From positions 1 to 38,688 of the forward strand of contig JAIBDQ010000009.1 of NCBI GenBank assembly GCA_024686135.1: a stretch of 38,688 bases of DNA. The letters are read 5' to 3'. Under the pieces are notes generated by a model. That model had not been told where the DNA came from. It saw only the letters and a list, made by a program, of their open reading frames with translations, and did not search any database. Below are positions 27,317 to 36,604 of this stretch, piece after piece. The DNA is from Halobacteriovorax sp. (GTDB taxonomy: Bacteria; Bdellovibrionota; Bacteriovoracia; Bacteriovoracales; Bacteriovoracaceae). Numbering within the stretch: the first letter of the stretch is position 1; every line of letters starts with the position of its first letter. The position numbers were made by a program, and so were the translations under genes.

Positions 27317-27344
27317 TAAGGTTTTGGCGACATAAACCCGATAA
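27317..27344 (+). promoter_or_regulatory. FliA (sigma-28)-like promoter
   Basis: TAAGGTTT (27317-27324), 12 nt, then CCCGATAA (27337-27344) matches TAAAGTTT-N11-GCCGATAA at 7 of 8 in each block, with the spacer one longer. The transcript would begin near 27351, only 2-3 nt before the ATG at 27354, giving an almost leaderless mRNA, which fits the lack of a ribosome site. Confidence 0.55.
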
Positions 27345-27353
27345 CTTGTTGAG

Positions 27354-29378
27354 ATGAATAGAAACAAATTTCAAAAACTCATAGTCATAATCCTCGGAAT
27401 ATATCCGATTTTGGTATTCTCATGCCCTCAAGGTGTAGATGAGTTTGGAAAATTAGTAGAAAGAGAAATCGACAATAACTTGGAGGCGCAGGTCGATGCT
27501 GTTACGTCGACTCAGATAGGAGTTAATAATGAGGCCAAGATGGGCGTGGCCACTGCTGGCTCACAAGATTCTAGAGTAGCTGTCTTCGATGTTGATTCAG
27601 TAGACGAGATTCATGCCGTAGAGAGAGAGATAAATGCTGCAGCAACGGCTAATACAGGTGACACAAAGTTATTTAAGCGAGATGTTGACTCTCTTGATGA
27701 ATTAGAAAGACTAGAAAAATCTGAAAGAAAATTTTTAAGGTACAAAAGAGAAATTAAAACTTCAGACGAAGTTGTGGCCGAAGTTACCAGAAAAAAAATA
27801 CCAGTTGATAGTGCAGAGTACAGATCGCAGATCAGGTCTCAGCCTTCAGTTGAGAGATTTAAATCAAAATATGCTCAGAGCCAATTGGAATTTGAAAATA
27901 GGAGGTTTATCAGTGAAATTGGTAAAAACCCTCCTGGTAAAAAGTCCGTTTACTTTGACGTTGAGAACTCAGTGCTCAAAGACTTAAATGACAATATTTT
28001 CGAATCTAAAGATTTAGGAGATGCGGCAGGAAACCTTTTTAATGATATTTTATATAGGAAAATCAAGTCCGACCCTAAATTGGCATCGAGTCTTGATGGA
28101 AAGTACCGCGACTTTAAGTCCCTGAGATTTAGGTTTCTTTTAAATGAAGGCGAAGATGCAACTCAGCTAAATAATGCTCTTAAGAAAGTTTACGGTGAAG
28201 CCGCTGCAGAGTTTGAAGTAAAGCTTTCATCTACAGGTCTAAAGGATCTTTGGGCATCTAAATCTGGACAAGTAGGTAACCCAAGAAAATGGTTTTTAGC
28301 AGGAACTGGTTCTGATCCTCTTGAAGCCAATATGGCAGCAAGACAAGCAAGAGGTATGCTAGAGGAGATGGGGACTTCAAACCGACTTGTAGAATATGGA
28401 ACAAGAGTTGAGAGCTTGTCAAAAGATATAAAAGACCTAGAAAAAATTCGAAAGCTTCTATCTCGAATGCCTGAACTTAAAAAATATGGAGTGATGGTTG
28501 ATTCTGGAAATGGAAAAATGATTTTATCAAAAGATATGATTGGCATTTTAAGAAAAACAAAGAGAGGAGACTTCTCCAACATAAATGATTATCGCAAGGC
28601 CGTTAGAAAACAAATCAAAGGTCTTTTCGGAGTAAAGTTAGATAAGGTAGCCATTGATGGGATGACAAAATACTTTGAAGGAGTAGATGCTTTAAGTCCT
28701 CCGTTATTTATAAGAAGTAGGAATGGAATCGACTTGAGTACGGCAGATAGTGGTCTCGTCTCGGTAGACTTTACCGGAGTAGGGGTGGATAACGCCTATG
28801 AGGCTATGAATGGTTTACTGAAAGCTTCTCCTGAAGGAGCGACTAATCAGAAGTTAGTTCAAAGCGCTTTAAAGAGTATTGATGAACATGTAGAAAACGT
28901 TACCGAATCTATGAATAATTCAAAACGAGCTTTTAATGATGGCACTCAACATGTTTCGGGTGCTGAAAAACCAGCAGTCTTTTCAGGGGATGATGGAATG
29001 TATTTTCCTGATAAACCCTGGACCAGGAGTGAAAAGCAAAAACTGGTTGATAAGCTTGGGAGCGAAGATCCATCTAAGTACCGGGTCACTTTCGTAGAAA
29101 CAAAATATAAGAATGGAAATACTATACCTGCGGACTTAAGGTCCGAGTATATTGTTAAGGCAGAGAAAGTTGAAAAGGCCATTCGTAAAGCTGTTACTGG
29201 TGTAGGAGAGGGGCAAATATCTCCAGAAAGGGCCCGCGAAATGATGATCGCCATTGAATATAGGCCTTCCAAAGCTGGAAAGTCAGATTGGGATATCTTG
29301 TTCGGAGGTAAAATTAATCACCACGAGCAAACAATTCTTAGAAGATCTCTCGAAGCAATTATAGAAGCGGAACATTAA
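27354..29378 (+). CDS. 674-residue exported protein of unknown family
   Basis: Signal sequence at residues 5-23 (KFQKLIVIILGIYPILVFS) followed by Cys24, the only cysteine in the protein. V-F-S-C is a relaxed lipobox, so a lipoprotein is likely. Residues 65-150 contain a duplicated acidic unit (DVDSVDEIHAVEREI and DVDSLDELERLEKSER) and a third weaker copy (REIKTSDEVVAEV). The rest is charged and mostly helical, with a few well-formed loops (WFLAGTGSDPLEANMAARQA; VSVDFTGVGVDNAYEAMNGL) and a C-terminal block around FGGKINHHEQ. No known domain was recognised. The only in-frame start after the upstream stop (27342-27344) is this ATG. A FliA-like promoter lies directly upstream. The stop interlocks with that of the small converging gene (TTAA, 4-nt overlap). 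Confidence 0.75.
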   Translation: MNRNKFQKLIVIILGIYPILVFSCPQGVDEFGKLVEREIDNNLEAQVDAVTSTQIGVNNEAKMGVATAGSQDSRVAVFDVDSVDEIHAVEREINAAATANTGDTKLFKRDVDSLDELERLEKSERKFLRYKREIKTSDEVVAEVTRKKIPVDSAEYRSQIRSQPSVERFKSKYAQSQLEFENRRFISEIGKNPPGKKSVYFDVENSVLKDLNDNIFESKDLGDAAGNLFNDILYRKIKSDPKLASSLDGKYRDFKSLRFRFLLNEGEDATQLNNALKKVYGEAAAEFEVKLSSTGLKDLWASKSGQVGNPRKWFLAGTGSDPLEANMAARQARGMLEEMGTSNRLVEYGTRVESLSKDIKDLEKIRKLLSRMPELKKYGVMVDSGNGKMILSKDMIGILRKTKRGDFSNINDYRKAVRKQIKGLFGVKLDKVAIDGMTKYFEGVDALSPPLFIRSRNGIDLSTADSGLVSVDFTGVGVDNAYEAMNGLLKASPEGATNQKLVQSALKSIDEHVENVTESMNNSKRAFNDGTQHVSGAEKPAVFSGDDGMYFPDKPWTRSEKQKLVDKLGSEDPSKYRVTFVETKYKNGNTIPADLRSEYIVKAEKVEKAIRKAVTGVGEGQISPERAREMMIAIEYRPSKAGKSDWDILFGGKINHHEQTILRRSLEAIIEAEH

Positions 29379-29629
29379 GCTGCTTCTGTAACACCTTCTT
29401 CAATTGAGTTTTTATATTGGTACCAAAGATGGTCGAGTTCGTGGTCCTTATGAGTTTCAATAAGGCCTAAAATGACATAATCTTCTGCTTCTTCTTGAGT
29501 AAGATGTGGGGTATGTTCTTTTTGTAAACGGTACATGACTTGTAGGTCTTCTTTTGGCGTTTGCGTTTTCAACAGGGTAGATACTCTTTTCTCAATTTTC
29601 GATAATAAACTTTCATTACTTGCTGCCAT
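29375..29629 (-). CDS. Small acidic helical protein, unknown
   Basis: 84 residues starting MAASNESL. GGAGGA lies 7 nt before this ATG, whereas the upstream in-frame ATG at 29668 has no ribosome site. The sequence is charged and helical (SLLSKIEKRVSTLLK; HLTQEEAEDYVILGLIETHK), without cysteine, signal peptide or membrane segment, so it is cytoplasmic. Family not recognised. It is monocistronic, and its 3' end overlaps the 674-residue gene by 4 nt, so antisense interference between the two is possible. Confidence 0.7.
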   Translation of the reverse strand: MAASNESLLSKIEKRVSTLLKTQTPKEDLQVMYRLQKEHTPHLTQEEAEDYVILGLIETHKDHELDHLWYQYKNSIEEGVTEAA

Positions 29630-29706
29630 AAAAATCCTCCAAATTACCTTTACCTTTTCGAATGACAAGATAATTTCTTTAGGAATTGCGAAAGCATTTC
29701 CACACC

Positions 29707-29712
29707 TATAAT
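29707..29712 (+). promoter_or_regulatory. -10 element of a probable leaderless rhomboid mRNA
   Basis: A perfect TATAAT ends 8 nt before the ATG at 29721, so transcription should start at about the first codon. No Shine-Dalgarno sequence is present. TTGCGA at 29686-29691 is a possible -35 with a short 15-nt spacer. Confidence 0.6.
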
Positions 29713-29720
29713 CTTAACTG

Positions 29721-30641
29721 ATGAATGAATTTGATAATATGATAAAAATTGGTGAGTTAGCAGATAAAAAAATAACCGAGCAAATTGTATCGGAGATGCT
29801 CAGAAGAAATATTCACCTTGAAAAAGTTTATGATTCGCAAAATCAGATGTTTGTCTTGTATGCCCGAGACGAAGAGTCGGCGACTATTGCGTTTGATTAT
29901 TATAGAGTAAAGGTTGGTTTTGCTCCTCCCCCTAAACCTATGCCCAAAGAATGGGAAAGTATTAAGAATGCCCCTCTTGGAAAAGTGACCATTGTCTTCT
30001 TGGCCATTAGCATCTTTGTTTATTTAAGTCGCCTTTTTATGGGTGATACTTTATTTGAACTCTTCTTTATGTCCAATCATCAAACTGGGGGACTATCCGA
30101 GATAAAAAATGGAGAATTTTGGAGAATCTTTACGCCTGTATTTCTCCACTTCAATCTTCTTCATATTTTATTTAACGGAATGTGGATGAAAGATCTTGGA
30201 AGTTTGATTGAGCATCATAAAGGAAAAATATTTTATATCACCTTAATCTTAATTTCAGGACTTCTCTCAAACATAGGGCAGTATTATGTTAAGGGACCTT
30301 TCTTCGGGGGACTTTCAGGGATTGTTTATGCTTTACTTGGCTTTGTTTGGATGAACAAAAAGTTTTTTCCTGAGGTTAGCTACTCCCTACCTAAAAATGA
30401 TGTCCTACTTATGATTGGTTGGTTTTTCTTTTGTTTTACTGGAGTACTTGGCCCAATTGCCAACACGGCCCACGGCATAGGTCTCGCCATAGGAATGATC
30501 TTTGGCGTTTTTAGTGGAAGTTTTAGTAATCAAAAATTCGATTCAATGAATATGCTTGGATACTGCCTCTTAGCGCTGATCTTCGGTGCTGGAACTTTTG
30601 CCTTTGAATTCTACGTTTTACCAATGATTACAGGCTCTTAA
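29721..30641 (+). CDS. Rhomboid intramembrane serine protease (GlpG-like)
   Basis: 306 residues. A soluble N-terminal domain (about 1-90, with an AxxAFxYYR helix-strand unit) precedes six or seven membrane segments (about 92-300). The rhomboid core is complete: FWRIFTPVFLHFNLLHILFN is the L1/TM2 motif with HxxxHxxxN, GGLSGIVYALLG contains the nucleophile Ser199 in G-x-S-G, and NTAHGIGLAIGMIFG contains the partner His251 in H-x-x-G-x-x-x-G. It cleaves membrane-anchored substrates within or next to the bilayer. It sits between two exported giants, but no substrate is evident. Start taken at 29721; leaderless transcription seems likely. Confidence 0.93.
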   Translation: MNEFDNMIKIGELADKKITEQIVSEMLRRNIHLEKVYDSQNQMFVLYARDEESATIAFDYYRVKVGFAPPPKPMPKEWESIKNAPLGKVTIVFLAISIFVYLSRLFMGDTLFELFFMSNHQTGGLSEIKNGEFWRIFTPVFLHFNLLHILFNGMWMKDLGSLIEHHKGKIFYITLILISGLLSNIGQYYVKGPFFGGLSGIVYALLGFVWMNKKFFPEVSYSLPKNDVLLMIGWFFFCFTGVLGPIANTAHGIGLAIGMIFGVFSGSFSNQKFDSMNMLGYCLLALIFGAGTFAFEFYVLPMITGS

Positions 30642-30657
30642 TAAGAAAATAGCCTCT

Positions 30658-30684
30658 TTAGGTTTAGCTCATCTTTACCGATAA
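30658..30684 (+). promoter_or_regulatory. FliA (sigma-28)-like promoter of the giant gene
   Basis: TTAGGTTT (30658-30665), exactly 11 nt, then ACCGATAA (30677-30684): 6 of 8 and 7 of 8 matches to TAAAGTTT and GCCGATAA with the canonical spacer. Transcription would begin near 30691, just before AGAGAGGT (30698-30705), a good ribosome site. Confidence 0.5.
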
Positions 30685-30733
30685 GTTATGGAGCTATAGA
30701 GAGGTAGTTATAAATTTTTATTCTCTGATTTTT

Positions 30734-33700
30734 TTGATGACCACGGTCTGGGGTCTCTTTCTTGGAAACAATCTTGTTGCCGGGGAGAGGTATACTCTAG
30801 AAGCTCAAAAACATGATGTTGCCTCAAATACTTCAACAGCAGTTTATTTTGATAATCGAGAACAAAGAATAGTTAAGAAAACATTTAAATGGTCAAAAGA
30901 ATTTGAAAAAAGGAGAAGAGATTCTAATAAAGAAAGTTTTAATTTTCCAGCAACTTCTTCTAACTTATCAAATGTCTCTCCTAAAACTCTTGATACGCAT
31001 AATGTAAAGGTTAGCTATGAGCACCATAGCCTCTATCACCCCTCCAATCGAAATAGAACTTCTAATGCAATAAAGAATGTTCTTGGTTCTAAAGCCTCGG
31101 CAAATAGTTTTGTCAGAAGAATGGAAACAAAAGTTGATCAATCAGAAAACCAATATGTCTTAGTACAAAAAGGCTCTAGTGGAAGCGGAAATAGGGCCAA
31201 AGATATCGCTGTTTATTATAATAAAGAACGGGGAGAGTTTGTAACTAAAACAATCAAAAGAAGAAGAAGCAATAGTCCGGCGTTTAATTTCCCTTCCTCT
31301 ATAGCAAGGCCAGCAATACTTGATCCATCCTCAAATGATAACTTTTTCAAGTTAGAGGAAAGTGATAGCTACTGGGCAAAAACACCCAATCAATTTGCTA
31401 AGGCCTTAGGGCGTATAAAAAGCGATTTTAATTCAGCAAAGGTTTCCTTTGATAAAGGTAAGTTTCAAAACCCCTTTGAGCAAATGAAAAAAAACAGAAG
31501 CGGGGATGTGCTAATAAAAGAACAGTATAAAGACGATAAACTATACCGCGTTTATTATAACTACGATCGAAATGAAATGATGGTTCAAGAGATGGACCTT
31601 GATCGTAAAGATAGAAGTAAAGTAAAAAACCTTAGTGAAACCGTATATGATTTAACCACAGACTTTGGTTATCAAGGTGCAAGGAATGCATTGGTAAGTA
31701 GTAAGGTTATCGCTGAAGGAGAGTTAGACTCTTTTAGAGGCGCGCAAGTCACTGCCTGTCGGGACGTACTTGAAAGCTATGTCCTTCCTGATTTAACGGA
31801 CTTTGAGAATATCACGGACGTCCTTTGGGATCGTCATTTGCATCAGGCCGTAGCGAGTGAAGCTATAAAAGGTCCGAATAGAAGTATGTTTTTAGAGTTA
31901 AACCTCTTAGATAAACCTAGAAGAGTTAAGGTCTTCCTAGATGCTAAAGGACAAGTTGCTAGAGTTGAATGGGTTGGTATGACACCAGAGGAAGCAGAAA
32001 AAGAAGGCCTTAAACTGGAATTTAAAACTGATGAAGATGGACAGAGAAATTATTTAATATCTACAAATTACCCTGAAAAAGACTCGTGGGACCCTATCAT
32101 GGGAATTAATGCGGATAATATCCGTGTTGAAAAAGGAGTTCTAAAAGGAAACTTAGCTGTCTTTGTAAAAGGAAAGAAAAGCGGGGATTTTGAATATGAC
32201 GAGTTTGAGAAAAGCGTCTTTCCTTTTGAATTAGATGAACAGAGAAGGGGAATTGCAAAACTAGATAAACGTCAAAGGCTTGATGGTAGCGCAAAGAATT
32301 ACTACGATATTGATGCTCCCTACGAAGACGGCTCTGGCGGGATAAAGAATGGATTTTTCAAATTGTTTTTTTCTAAAGAAGGAAGAAGGGAATTTGTTAG
32401 AGACACTATTTATGAGAATGCAAATGAAACGCTTAGTGGACCGGACTATAATCACCTAATTAATAACCGTGAAATTTGGAAAATCTCAGACAGAATCTCG
32501 CATCAATTGGGTAAGAAAACTAATAATTATACTTCCTCGGTAACTGATATTACCGCAAAAGGTGCTGAACTGGCTTACGCCGCTTTTGGTGATGAAATCT
32601 TATTAAGAGTTATTAAAGATATGTTACCTGAAGAATCGGATGCGGCAATTAATAGTGTCGTATTAAACGTTACTGAAGCTTTTAAAGAATGCTTGGCCAG
32701 GGCAGGAAATAGCAGAAACAAAAAAGTAGCTGATCAATGTATGGAGATTTTCAAAACGGAAGCTCCTATTTATGTGGGAAAAGAGGTCTTACTATTAAAG
32801 CTAGGGCAAAATGATCTTGGTGATTTTGAAGACGATGCCAATAAAGTCTATATGGGCTGTATAAAAGAAAACTATAGACCAGCTGCAAGTGAACAAGATT
32901 CGACTAACAAGATTAAAGGTTGTTTATATCAAGCCTTTTTAGAAACGATTGATAAGGCCATGGGACCAACTTTAGATAAAGAGGTCGGCAAAATTGTCAA
33001 AGATAAAGGTTATAATTTTAAATTATCTGCCTCGGAAAAAGATGGTCTCTTAAAAGGTATGAAGTCTTGTCTGAATTCTAAGAAACTTCAGTCTGATGGA
33101 CTATTTGGCACAAAATATAACTTTCAAAAGTTAGAGAATATGGAGCCTGCTGACTTTGAACAAAACCTAATGAGTTGTGTAACTAATATTAAGGTCGGTA
33201 CAGGTCGTATTGTTGTAGGGAAGATTCTAGGGATTGAGCTTGCTAAGCAAGACCTGACTCCTGATGTTAAGGTAGCAGCTAAAGAAAAAGCTATGACTCG
33301 AGGTTATGAGGCTTGTGTTAAAAAGCAAGAAGAGATCGTTCAAGAGTTTGTTTCTCAGTTAAGGCCAGTGACTAAAAAAGCACCTATACCAGGAAAACCG
33401 ATTAAGCCTCAAGCAAAGTCTGAAAAGATGGTTAAAATTCCGGCCATTGAACCTGGTGAATGTGCAAATCTAGTGTTGAATAGGACTCTATCCATAGTGG
33501 TTCCAGAAATGGTGAAAAAGGCCATTGGAGCTGAATTTTATAATAAACTTTCTAAAAACCAAGAAACGATGCCTCAATTTTTAATTTGCTTTGATAGAGA
33601 AGAAAAGCGTCTCACTGATGAGCTTCCCTATATTCTAAAGACTGAAGCTGGTCTAGATGCGAAGACGAAAGCTAAAAATGCTGAGGCTAGAGCATCAAGA

Positions 33701-36604
33701 GCGGATAAAGCTCACGCAAATTGTTTAAAACAGGCCTTAACTTGGGCCAGTTTTCACGCCGTAGGACAAATTGTTGAAGACACACTTAAGAAAGATCCAG
33801 AACTATCAAAACTAATTACGCTTTCGGATAAAGATAAGACTGTAATGGGGAAGATAATTCAGGCCTGCTTTGCTAAAGAGCTGGAGGCCTATGAAACGGT
33901 CTCTTCTATGACTGAAGCACTAGACCCACTTAAAGAGAAATGTGGTGTTGAGCTTTTACAGGACTCTGATGTTCAACAGATAATTTTCAAGCCGGTAATA
34001 GAAGGCTCTCTTAAAGATGCGAACATTAAAGAAAAAGATCTCAAAGGCCTAAGCGACTCCATTCTCGAAGGTATGAATAAAGAGATGAAGACAGCTAAAA
34101 CAATCGATGAAGTGATTGCAGCAGCAAAATCATATAAAGGTAAAGCTGCCATACAAGTTATCGACTTTAGTATAAAAGATAAAATCAATGATCTAGTTGA
34201 AATTGAAAATCCTGACTTAAAACTAAGTGAAGTTTCGAGGCTAAATAAGTTAGCTCAAGATAAGTTATTAAGTAGCGAAGGGCTAGACTTTAAAACCAGA
34301 ATCCTTGAAGCCGCAAAAGATAGCGACCCAAAAGTACTTGATGCGGTTCTAGATGATTTTAAAGTCGAAGCGACGAAAACCATTGGTCCCGAAGTTGTAG
34401 AATTGACAGGAGAAAAACTTTTAAAAGATGGACTCCTCTCTAATGAAAATGAAGTCAAAGAAATGAGAAGGGTTGCAGAGAAGAAATTAAAAGAATGTTT
34501 AGAGAATAGACCGGTAGGGGTTAAAACAGATGCTCATATTGACGAATGTGTTATTAAATTAAAATCATCTTCAACAGAATGGGTTATCAATAAATCATTG
34601 ATGAAGAATTTAACTGATGAAGAGAACTCAAGAATTTTCTCTAAAGAGGATCAAGAAAGAATCATAGGTGAAGTCTTAGACGATGCTGCTAAAAAAGAAA
34701 TTGAAAGGATAAGTAGGATAAAAGATAAGAAAGAAGCTGAATTAGCACTTAATAAATTAACCATATCGATAAAATCAAAAGCAGCAGGGGAAATAGTTAA
34801 GGGAGTCATTCCTTATACGCTAGACCAAGTCCTAACTATTAGTAAGCGTGCCAGTGAGCAAATGGTAGAGAGAACCAAAGAATTTAAAGCAAGTTTAAAG
34901 AAAGAGCTTATTGGAGACTTTGATATTTGTATTGAAAAATATAAAAAAGGTTCTATCGCCGCCCTTAATGGTAATTGGTCGAACGAAAAATATAATCCTG
35001 ATGAGGAGTTCGATGCTTGTGCTAATCGCTTAAGGCTTTCTTCTATGGAAAAGATCATGCCATATAAATTTAAAGAAGTATTAAGACTTATTAATAAAAA
35101 TGATATGGAAAATGACTCTGTCATTAAGTCTAGCCAGCTCTACTTTGATAAATGTGCAGATCAAGTGGATATCTACTCTGATTCCAAAGACTTTAAATAC
35201 CAAATGGACTCGTGCTCGGTGATGACTGTCTTTAAATTTACAAAAAATACAATTCAGTATACTCGCGACTTAGGCGATGGATTATTCGTTCAAAATCCAA
35301 AGACTATTGAAGAGTGGGATTCATGTATCTCTAGAATGAGAGGAGATGTGATTGAAAAACTTGCCCCCTATAATAAGGACAAGACGTTAGAAGTTATAAA
35401 AGATGATTTCACTTTCATATCTGAGGCTTTTAAGAAAAATGCCAATATTAAAGACGAAGAATATAAGCCGGTCACAATGGAATGGGTTGTTGATAGAATC
35501 AAGCGATGTGCTCTTGAGTCTCTTGCTCCAAACCTCATTCAAGAATATAAAATGAAAGTGATTACGGATCCGAAGCTAAAACTTTCGGCCAGGGAACAAG
35601 CAGTAACTAGTTCATTCCTAGACTCACTAAGTAATATCTTAAGTCTTAAGTATGATGGGAAACCTGTTAACTTTCAGGTTGATAAATTTGTTAAAGAACT
35701 TAACACTGAATTAGATAATTTACCTAAGAGCGACAAAGAAAACAAGCCCGATTACCTAACCGTGATCGAGGAATTTCAGCCTCTAATTTACGACTATGTA
35801 AAAGATTTAGTTGGTTACGATCAAAGGGGTTTTCTAGAGGGCATCAAAGACTTCGAAAAAAGAGTAAAAAGGGCCGTAGAGCTCAATAAAGGTAAGCTAT
35901 CAATTCCAGAGCTTAAAGATATCCTTGTTGATTCAAAGTTGGGCGATGTCCTCCTAAAGTCTTTAGTCTCTAAAATTATCAAAGATAAAGCAGGGGAGGC
36001 TCTTAAGAAACAAGGTGTCTCCGCAGGTTCTGTGGTCAATGAACTTTCCTCGAAAGAAATGCTAGATAGAATCTTTAGAGGTAAGAAAGGACAGGAGACG
36101 ATTACACATGTGAAGCGGAAGCTAAAAGGCCTTGGGCTACAAGAGATCTTCCAACTTCTGAATACGAAAAAAGCTAGTAATAAAAAGAAACTCGATGTTT
36201 TGATGAAGGATATCAATGGTAAAGTCATCGATACACTCTCTGAAGATACAATGAATGGAGGTTTCGTAGAAACCCTATTTGGACCGATTGTTCAAAAGTC
36301 ATTAACAGAGAAAAGAGATGGCATTGAATCAGGATTCTCTGCAATTTTCAAAGTGCCTGCCGCTGGACTTATGGGTTACAACCGTCATGAGTTTCATTGG
36401 GGAACTAGATGGGATAATAGAAGTTATTCTCTAAGAAATACACCTTCGGGTAAGAAGGCCGTGAGGAATTTTAGTTCTTATATCTTAAAACCTCTTATGA
36501 AAGATGGTATGTCGGACTCCGATTTAGAGAAGAAGATCGAAAAACATATTGAACCTCAAATCAAAGAAGCCCTTGGTGAAAACGGCGTTGGATTGTGGGA
36601 ATAG
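30734..36604 (+). CDS. 1956-residue secreted Cys-pair repeat protein, unknown family
   Basis: No known domain was recognised. Residues about 30-290 contain three copies of a beta unit (AVYFDNREQRIVKKTFK near 36, AVYYNKERGEFVTKTIK near 158, RVYYNYDRNEMMVQEMD near 270), the first two followed by an FNFP motif. From 653 to 1592 the protein is helical and holds twenty cysteines in ten successive pairs; most adjacent pairs are separated by 37-49 residues. Such regular pairs imply disulfides and export. The C-terminal 300 residues lack cysteine and end with a distinct GYNRHEFHWGTRWDNRSYS block. The start is uncertain: TTG 30734 and ATG 30737 have no ribosome site, while AGAGAGGT points to an in-frame AUA at 30710 that would restore a longer hydrophobic leader (NFYSLIFLMTTVWGLFL). 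A FliA-like promoter is upstream. Confidence 0.75.
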   Translation: MMTTVWGLFLGNNLVAGERYTLEAQKHDVASNTSTAVYFDNREQRIVKKTFKWSKEFEKRRRDSNKESFNFPATSSNLSNVSPKTLDTHNVKVSYEHHSLYHPSNRNRTSNAIKNVLGSKASANSFVRRMETKVDQSENQYVLVQKGSSGSGNRAKDIAVYYNKERGEFVTKTIKRRRSNSPAFNFPSSIARPAILDPSSNDNFFKLEESDSYWAKTPNQFAKALGRIKSDFNSAKVSFDKGKFQNPFEQMKKNRSGDVLIKEQYKDDKLYRVYYNYDRNEMMVQEMDLDRKDRSKVKNLSETVYDLTTDFGYQGARNALVSSKVIAEGELDSFRGAQVTACRDVLESYVLPDLTDFENITDVLWDRHLHQAVASEAIKGPNRSMFLELNLLDKPRRVKVFLDAKGQVARVEWVGMTPEEAEKEGLKLEFKTDEDGQRNYLISTNYPEKDSWDPIMGINADNIRVEKGVLKGNLAVFVKGKKSGDFEYDEFEKSVFPFELDEQRRGIAKLDKRQRLDGSAKNYYDIDAPYEDGSGGIKNGFFKLFFSKEGRREFVRDTIYENANETLSGPDYNHLINNREIWKISDRISHQLGKKTNNYTSSVTDITAKGAELAYAAFGDEILLRVIKDMLPEESDAAINSVVLNVTEAFKECLARAGNSRNKKVADQCMEIFKTEAPIYVGKEVLLLKLGQNDLGDFEDDANKVYMGCIKENYRPAASEQDSTNKIKGCLYQAFLETIDKAMGPTLDKEVGKIVKDKGYNFKLSASEKDGLLKGMKSCLNSKKLQSDGLFGTKYNFQKLENMEPADFEQNLMSCVTNIKVGTGRIVVGKILGIELAKQDLTPDVKVAAKEKAMTRGYEACVKKQEEIVQEFVSQLRPVTKKAPIPGKPIKPQAKSEKMVKIPAIEPGECANLVLNRTLSIVVPEMVKKAIGAEFYNKLSKNQETMPQFLICFDREEKRLTDELPYILKTEAGLDAKTKAKNAEARASRADKAHANCLKQALTWASFHAVGQIVEDTLKKDPELSKLITLSDKDKTVMGKIIQACFAKELEAYETVSSMTEALDPLKEKCGVELLQDSDVQQIIFKPVIEGSLKDANIKEKDLKGLSDSILEGMNKEMKTAKTIDEVIAAAKSYKGKAAIQVIDFSIKDKINDLVEIENPDLKLSEVSRLNKLAQDKLLSSEGLDFKTRILEAAKDSDPKVLDAVLDDFKVEATKTIGPEVVELTGEKLLKDGLLSNENEVKEMRRVAEKKLKECLENRPVGVKTDAHIDECVIKLKSSSTEWVINKSLMKNLTDEENSRIFSKEDQERIIGEVLDDAAKKEIERISRIKDKKEAELALNKLTISIKSKAAGEIVKGVIPYTLDQVLTISKRASEQMVERTKEFKASLKKELIGDFDICIEKYKKGSIAALNGNWSNEKYNPDEEFDACANRLRLSSMEKIMPYKFKEVLRLINKNDMENDSVIKSSQLYFDKCADQVDIYSDSKDFKYQMDSCSVMTVFKFTKNTIQYTRDLGDGLFVQNPKTIEEWDSCISRMRGDVIEKLAPYNKDKTLEVIKDDFTFISEAFKKNANIKDEEYKPVTMEWVVDRIKRCALESLAPNLIQEYKMKVITDPKLKLSAREQAVTSSFLDSLSNILSLKYDGKPVNFQVDKFVKELNTELDNLPKSDKENKPDYLTVIEEFQPLIYDYVKDLVGYDQRGFLEGIKDFEKRVKRAVELNKGKLSIPELKDILVDSKLGDVLLKSLVSKIIKDKAGEALKKQGVSAGSVVNELSSKEMLDRIFRGKKGQETITHVKRKLKGLGLQEIFQLLNTKKASNKKKLDVLMKDINGKVIDTLSEDTMNGGFVETLFGPIVQKSLTEKRDGIESGFSAIFKVPAAGLMGYNRHEFHWGTRWDNRSYSLRNTPSGKKAVRNFSSYILKPLMKDGMSDSDLEKKIEKHIEPQIKEALGENGVGLWE

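Follow-up and report, generated by a model that had tools for sequence, protein, structure and literature searches.

The stretch of DNA analyzed here (the window) is the whole of a 38,688-base contig (C171; JAIBDQ010000009.1) from the genome G000 (3.29 Mb, 82% complete), a marine relative of the predator Halobacteriovorax. It carries genes for two putatively exported proteins, P1 and P2, each preceded by an element resembling the promoters recognized by the sigma factor FliA (Table 1). An earlier note on this DNA had proposed both elements, and they are indeed present and are the two best FliA-like sites of the window. Their placement also agrees with that proposal, the predicted transcript start falling just before the ATG in P1 and just before the Shine-Dalgarno sequence AGAGAGG in P2. 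The two genes are not adjacent as the note had it: a rhomboid protease gene and a small reverse-strand open reading frame (ORF) intervene. Two sister species of Halobacteriovorax, the closest relatives, served for comparison: G001 (orthologs on PBIO01000031) and G002 (orthologs on CAJXVS010000001), both assigned from identity and coordinates.

Table 1. Features of the window discussed in the text, with the basis of each assignment
Feature	Coordinates	Strand	Basis
P1 FliA-type promoter, TAAGGTTT-N12-CCCGATAA	27317..27344	+	Second FliA score in window; kept in G001 and G002; -10 also before the P1 orthologs of G079 and G004
P2 FliA-type promoter, TTAGGTTT-N11-ACCGATAA	30658..30684	+	Top FliA score in window; kept in G001 and G002; related elements at most family orthologs
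P1, exported protein of 674 residues; two predicted domains of nucleotidyl-cyclase fold; predicted nearly leaderless transcript	27354..29378	+	ORF; AlphaFold2; fold searches
P1 putative signal sequence, about residues 1-23	27354..27422	+	Hydrophobic N-terminus; cleavage site inferred by eye
P1 domain 1, residues 175-350, predicted GGDEF-like fold	27876..28403	+	Z 13.2, root-mean-square deviation (rmsd) 2.6 over 146 residues against GGDEF domains; DosC profile match
P1 domain 2, residues 440-674, predicted nucleotidyl-cyclase/palm fold with D472 and SGDD	28671..29375	+	Separate model, predicted local distance difference test (pLDDT) 86.8, predicted template modeling score (pTM) 0.83; structural matches
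SGDD, residues 544-547, predicted strand2-strand3 hairpin at the GGDEF/GGDD position	28983..28994	+	S544, G545 and D546 invariant; D547 invariant or E
P2, exported cysteine-rich protein of about 1,964 residues (proposed start)	30710..36604	+	ORF; conserved Shine-Dalgarno and ATA; about 22 invariant cysteines; listed ORF begins at TTG 30734
Conserved 5' leader of P2, GAGCTATAGAGAGGTAGTTATAA, including Shine-Dalgarno AGAGAGG (30698-30704)	30691..30713	+	Identical in three species
GlpG-like rhomboid protease gene	29721..30641	+	Pfam PF01694, E 2e-22; between P1 and P2

Evidence for FliA promoters

When both strands of the window were scored for FliA sites, the P2 element ranked first (13.3) and the P1 element second (12.6), with a third site at 11.3. 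A second-order Markov model gives a chance expectation of 0.05 sites scoring at least 12.5 per window, and in 40 simulations no site scored above 12.6. The score weights, along with a tolerance for T/A and A/G at two -35 positions, were fixed only after the sites were known, and the independent tests are therefore given more weight than the score. Measured against the consensus (-35 TAAA/TTAAG(TTT), -10 GCCGATAA, spacing of 11 nucleotides (nt), or 16 to the core), the P2 element fits with N11 and the P1 element with N12. The strict joint pattern TWAGGTTT-N(11-12)-NCCGATAA is found at only two places in the 3.29-Mb genome, which are these two elements.

Genome-wide statistics were obtained from pattern searches, with controls in which the pattern was read backwards. 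With one mismatch allowed, TWARGTTT-N12-CCGATAA occurs at 20, 22 and 17 sites in G000, G001 and G002, compared with 4, 8 and 8 in the control. About a dozen of these sites appear, as judged by eye, to be orthologous between G000 and G001, with both boxes retained and the spacer diverged. Many stand upstream of exported-protein genes, and the targets of FliA-type sites here are mostly exported, non-flagellar proteins, resembling those of Bdellovibrio. Scans with two mismatches were dominated by chance (107 sites versus 81 in controls) and were excluded as evidence.

Both elements are conserved in the two sister species; in G002 the P1 element has an identical -10 sequence and a different -35. 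In the wider family, a score of at least 10.2 is reached by 11 of the 15 P2 orthologs and by 7% of the 197 other ORFs compared with them (p = 3e-8, Mann-Whitney), and the promoter signal of P1 orthologs is limited to a few genera (p = 0.005); these p-values are descriptive only, because orthologs are related sequences. The genome G000 encodes an intact FliA (C105; 269 bits, E 5e-80), the sole protein above the curated FliA cut-off, as well as eight flagellin matches. An orthologous flagellin gene is preceded by TAAAGTTT-N11-CCCGATAA in G002, a perfect and strong copy, and by the moderate TAAAGTTT-N11-TCCGAAGA in G000 and G001. The concern, raised at the outset, that flagellar promoters might follow a different consensus thus falls away, because flagellin genes of the genus carry the same element type, strongest in G002, although several of them show no strong site. 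The FliA gene, the conservation in sister species, the family-wide P2 element and the flagellin elements strongly support the earlier assignment, and the two elements, whose conservation and positions are shown, are very probably FliA promoters.

Two other conserved FliA-type sites were met in these searches. One (G000:C125:10618-10644, L004; also G001:C14, L109) lies 45 nt upstream of the gene for an exported protein whose start is Rhs-like (VDLEIVRTYNSKSTDRGWFGFGWGSDYE-type sequence). The other (G000:C49:2748-2774, L008; also G002:C2:442251, L124) is placed 6 nt ahead of the start codon, an ATG, of the gene for a small protein that is also exported (YKRKLYPHWVD.DRDCQN.R).

A predicted leaderless layout

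The P1 -10 element ends 9 nt upstream of the first ATG (27354), and the distance is 7 nt in G079 and G004. With a transcript start 7-8 nt past the -10, the predicted leader of P1 is therefore only 2-3 nt long. This arrangement recurs: CCGATAA-N(6-10)-ATG has 46 matches in G000, against 14 in the control, and the spacing is N7 in 19 of the 46 (in G001, 18 of 59). At least 12 of the G000 matches open ORFs with a signal-like N-terminus. In 11 further genomes of the phylum, CCGATAA-N7-ATG is found 182 times versus 30 in the control, a six-fold excess. In one genome assembled as a single contig (G142, 3.77 Mb; sites L266-L300), at 33 of 35 such sites the ATG opens an ORF that has at least 60 codons or runs off the fetched stretch, and 22 of the encoded proteins have a hydrophobic N-terminus. 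Several of these share the start APNSLTYQGRI, a motif possibly reminiscent of the MAT proteins, surface fibres of attack-phase Bdellovibrio.

The excess of this arrangement across the phylum suggests, with transcript starts being predicted ones, a class of leaderless FliA transcripts throughout the Bdellovibrionota. The titles and abstracts of the literature searched, which included few subscription papers, describe no leaderless transcripts in Bdellovibrio. A fixed distance of 7 nt between the FliA -10 element and the ATG would amount to a sequence rule by which attack-phase exported genes could be listed, and would tie one sigma factor to leaderless translation.

The P1 family and its predicted fold

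The earlier note had described both proteins as exported and unrecognized. Signal sequences are present, and searches of Pfam, NCBIfam, PHROGs and Protein Data Bank (PDB) sequences with P1 and with P2 gave chance-level matches only; P1 is no longer without a relative at the level of structure, being predicted to contain two domains of nucleotidyl-cyclase fold. A hydrophobic N-terminus is found in P1 and most of its complete homologs, and export of P1 is highly probable from its sequence. The family was met only inside the phylum, in a genome search over relatives and a wider scan that used one short pattern. Family alignments show as invariant N182, E204-N205, K209, N212-D213, R400, D472, S544-G545-D546, R577, E607-K608 and R611. 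The sequence CSGDDC occurs in 15 of 31 homologs, where its cysteines could form a disulfide, and it counts, with the hydrophobic N-termini, in favor of export.

The AlphaFold2 model of P1 is confident from about residue 160, with pLDDT near 90 over the C-terminal 520 residues, and both domains are predicted to have the beta-alpha-alpha-beta-beta-alpha-beta fold of the superfamily. Domain 1 combines a predicted GGDEF-like fold with the N-R-R and D.x.D...K..ND motifs, conserving N182, D202, E204, K209, N212 and D213, and its top match in the structural aligner is LapD. In a profile comparison, its NRRFI...FDVENSVLKDLND aligns with NRRFL...IDVDKFKEIND of Escherichia coli DosC, with a weak score and in the register expected from the fold.

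For domain 2, all 50 top rows of the structural aligner are nucleotidyl-cyclase/palm folds (Z 7.6-9.8). The guidance for the aligner is that Z below 8 may reflect merely a common arrangement; the match is read as more than that because the list is uniform and because of where the invariant acidic residues fall. By alignment and model, these occupy the positions of metal ligands, D472 on strand 1 and D546 (D547) in the hairpin. The best solved-structure matches of P1 in Foldseek, likewise of the nucleotidyl-cyclase/palm fold, are soluble adenylyl cyclase, Csm1, Cmr2, SiaD, SadC and mCpol. Among the Foldseek results for domain 2, entries for cohesin were set aside as probable coiled-coil matches of lower probability and high rmsd, and PADLOC found no defense-system model matching this domain. 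A profile comparison of the two domains detected no usable similarity, so an internal duplication is unsupported. That P1 consists of two nucleotidyl-cyclase-fold domains is, as a prediction from these models, held with high confidence.

Three further observations concern P1 relatives and GGDEF domains. A paralog in the same genome (G000:C213:21980-23362, L255) has a lipoprotein-like N-terminus, and no FliA-type site was found upstream of it. Long homologs (L063, L065, L069, L203-L208 and others) carry, N-terminal to both domains, a Gly-rich hydrophobic stretch with two cysteines (e.g. LVGGGLCAVTAGLGCAVAVAIGTE), possibly a membrane-inserting segment. The 82% complete genome G000 yielded only two canonical GGDEF domains, few for a free-living swimmer.

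P2 and the rhomboid gene

The conserved block that follows the P2 -10 element begins at 30691, the expected transcript start. Within it, AGAGAGG and an ATA five bases on (within 30698-30712) are identical in three species, which have no ATG, GTG or TTG at a position conserved across all three; in most other genera a TTG lies nearby. Because the Shine-Dalgarno sequence and the ATA are conserved without any other conserved start codon, ATA 30710 is proposed as the start of P2, and it seems a somewhat better candidate than TTG 30734 or ATG 30737. The protein would then be slightly longer than the 1956 residues first given. About 22 of its cysteines are invariant in ten relatives. The rhomboid gene lies directly upstream of P2 in G001, G002, G079 and G046 as well.

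Proposed mechanism and alternative explanations

In the proposed mechanism, RNA polymerase carrying FliA (sigma-28) would use the two promoters separately in the free-swimming cell. P1 would have a nearly leaderless transcript of its own, and the P2 transcript would begin with some 20 nt of leader that includes a Shine-Dalgarno site. Both proteins would be exported. P1 would act outside the predator cytoplasm, where it would most likely bind or cyclise nucleotides at the contact between predator and prey, and P2 would be a giant cysteine-rich envelope or secreted protein. Attack-phase expression is quite likely by analogy, because the consensus TTAAG-N16-CCGATA is present in 92 of the 140 promoters of the attack phase in B. 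bacteriovorus (PMC3627812); FliA is essential in that organism (PMC5430801). A location of both proteins outside the cytoplasm is likely, and a role in the envelope, which the earlier note suggested, is possible. With catalysis left aside, the combined statement, namely FliA promoters, attack-phase expression and an exported P1 with tandem cyclase folds, is on the whole likely to be correct. Catalytic activity of P1 on nucleotides, as judged from the models, is possible but somewhat less probable than its absence, and action on or in the prey is doubtful. Least likely of these, and rather speculative, is the full proposition that exported P1 is catalytically active as a nucleotidyl cyclase or an oligonucleotide polymerase, that it is expressed under attack-phase FliA and makes a signaling or toxic nucleotide outside the predator cytoplasm, at or within the prey, and also that FliA in the Bdellovibrionota drives a leaderless mRNA class for exported predation proteins.

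Two alternatives concern the promoters. A purely chance origin of the elements in AT-rich intergenic sequence is very improbable: chance should account for about one third of the sites that the loose genome pattern picks up, but these two rank first and second in the window and are conserved in sister species, and the P2 element extends family-wide. Also improbable is a reading in which the two sites serve as ordinary motility-class promoters, used by a different sigma factor or by FliA at times other than the attack phase. The link to phase is known from Bdellovibrio only (PMC3627812), and G000 has a weaker FliA-like gene at C22 (67.6 bits), but just one protein scores above the FliA cut-off, the sites follow the FliA consensus and the targets are mostly not flagellar.

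Several observations weigh against the proposed mechanism. The 12-nt spacer of the P1 element is of a less usual length (it is 11 nt in G002), P1 homologs beyond the few genera have no good FliA site, and several other flagellin genes of G000 lack a strong one. In B. bacteriovorus, removal of the ribosome site reportedly reduced reporter expression from the promoters tested (PMC12622784), which argues against efficient leaderless translation in general. The Foldseek E-values for P1 are weak (best 7e-3), the GGDEF model (PF00990) matched none of 22 family members, and the GGDEF motif of domain 1 is lost, with YxDFKSxR standing at the strand2-strand3 hairpin instead. Furthermore, we know of no supply of nucleoside triphosphates in the periplasm. 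The loss of the motif and the problem of supply favor a third alternative, in which the promoters are real and FliA-dependent and the P1 domains are a structural relic, the cyclase fold having a scaffolding or binding role and no catalytic one. Non-catalytic receptors are indeed numerous among degenerate GGDEF domains, LapD being an example. This alternative has close to an even chance of being correct; what argues against it is that D472, SGDD, R577, E607-K608 and R611 vary little or not at all between families, a conservation beyond the needs of a scaffold.

Whichever role P1 has, its family is a conserved one with signal peptides, so far met only in the phylum of the Bdellovibrio-like predators and here apparently under the attack-phase sigma factor, and it makes nucleotide chemistry across the predator-prey interface a testable question.

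Comparison with known systems

The closest parallel for the promoters is the FliA regulon of B. bacteriovorus, which shares the consensus and in which many targets are exported, surface or unknown proteins (PMC3627812, PMC5430801). That organism belongs to a different class of the phylum from the Halobacteriovorax relatives, and these reports, as far as could be seen, mention no orthologs of P1 or P2 and no constant spacing of 7 nt between the -10 element and the ATG. The gene that separates P1 from P2 resembles GlpG-type rhomboid proteases in its Pfam rhomboid domain, with NCBIfam GlpG as best match, below cut-off; unlike these, the Bacteriovoracia gene is linked to P2, and no FliA element of its own was seen.

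Domain 1 of P1 resembles GGDEF (diguanylate cyclase) domains in fold (Z 13.2) and in the N-R-R and D.x.[DE]...K..ND motifs, but it has neither the GGDEF motif nor a Pfam match, and its acidic pair and lysine stand two residues further apart. P1 also differs from GGDEF proteins in having a second palm domain in the same chain and a signal peptide. The literature searched, in which coverage of subscription papers was thin, held no earlier report of an exported or periplasmic GGDEF or palm protein; to our knowledge, cyclic-nucleotide enzymes of the GGDEF and Cas10 types work in the cytoplasm. Two cyclase-fold domains per chain are also found in soluble adenylyl cyclase (sAC), a class III pseudo-dimer, and in Cas10 (Csm1/Cmr2), and P1 further resembles the GGDD domain of Cas10 in combining a strand-1 acidic residue and a [GS]GDD hairpin in one domain. 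Additional comparators are the two-palm GTP cyclohydrolase III and the single-palm mCpol (OptS). What sets P1 apart from Cas10, the cyclases and mCpol is its signal peptide, the frequent CSGDDC of its family and the GGDEF-like domain 1.

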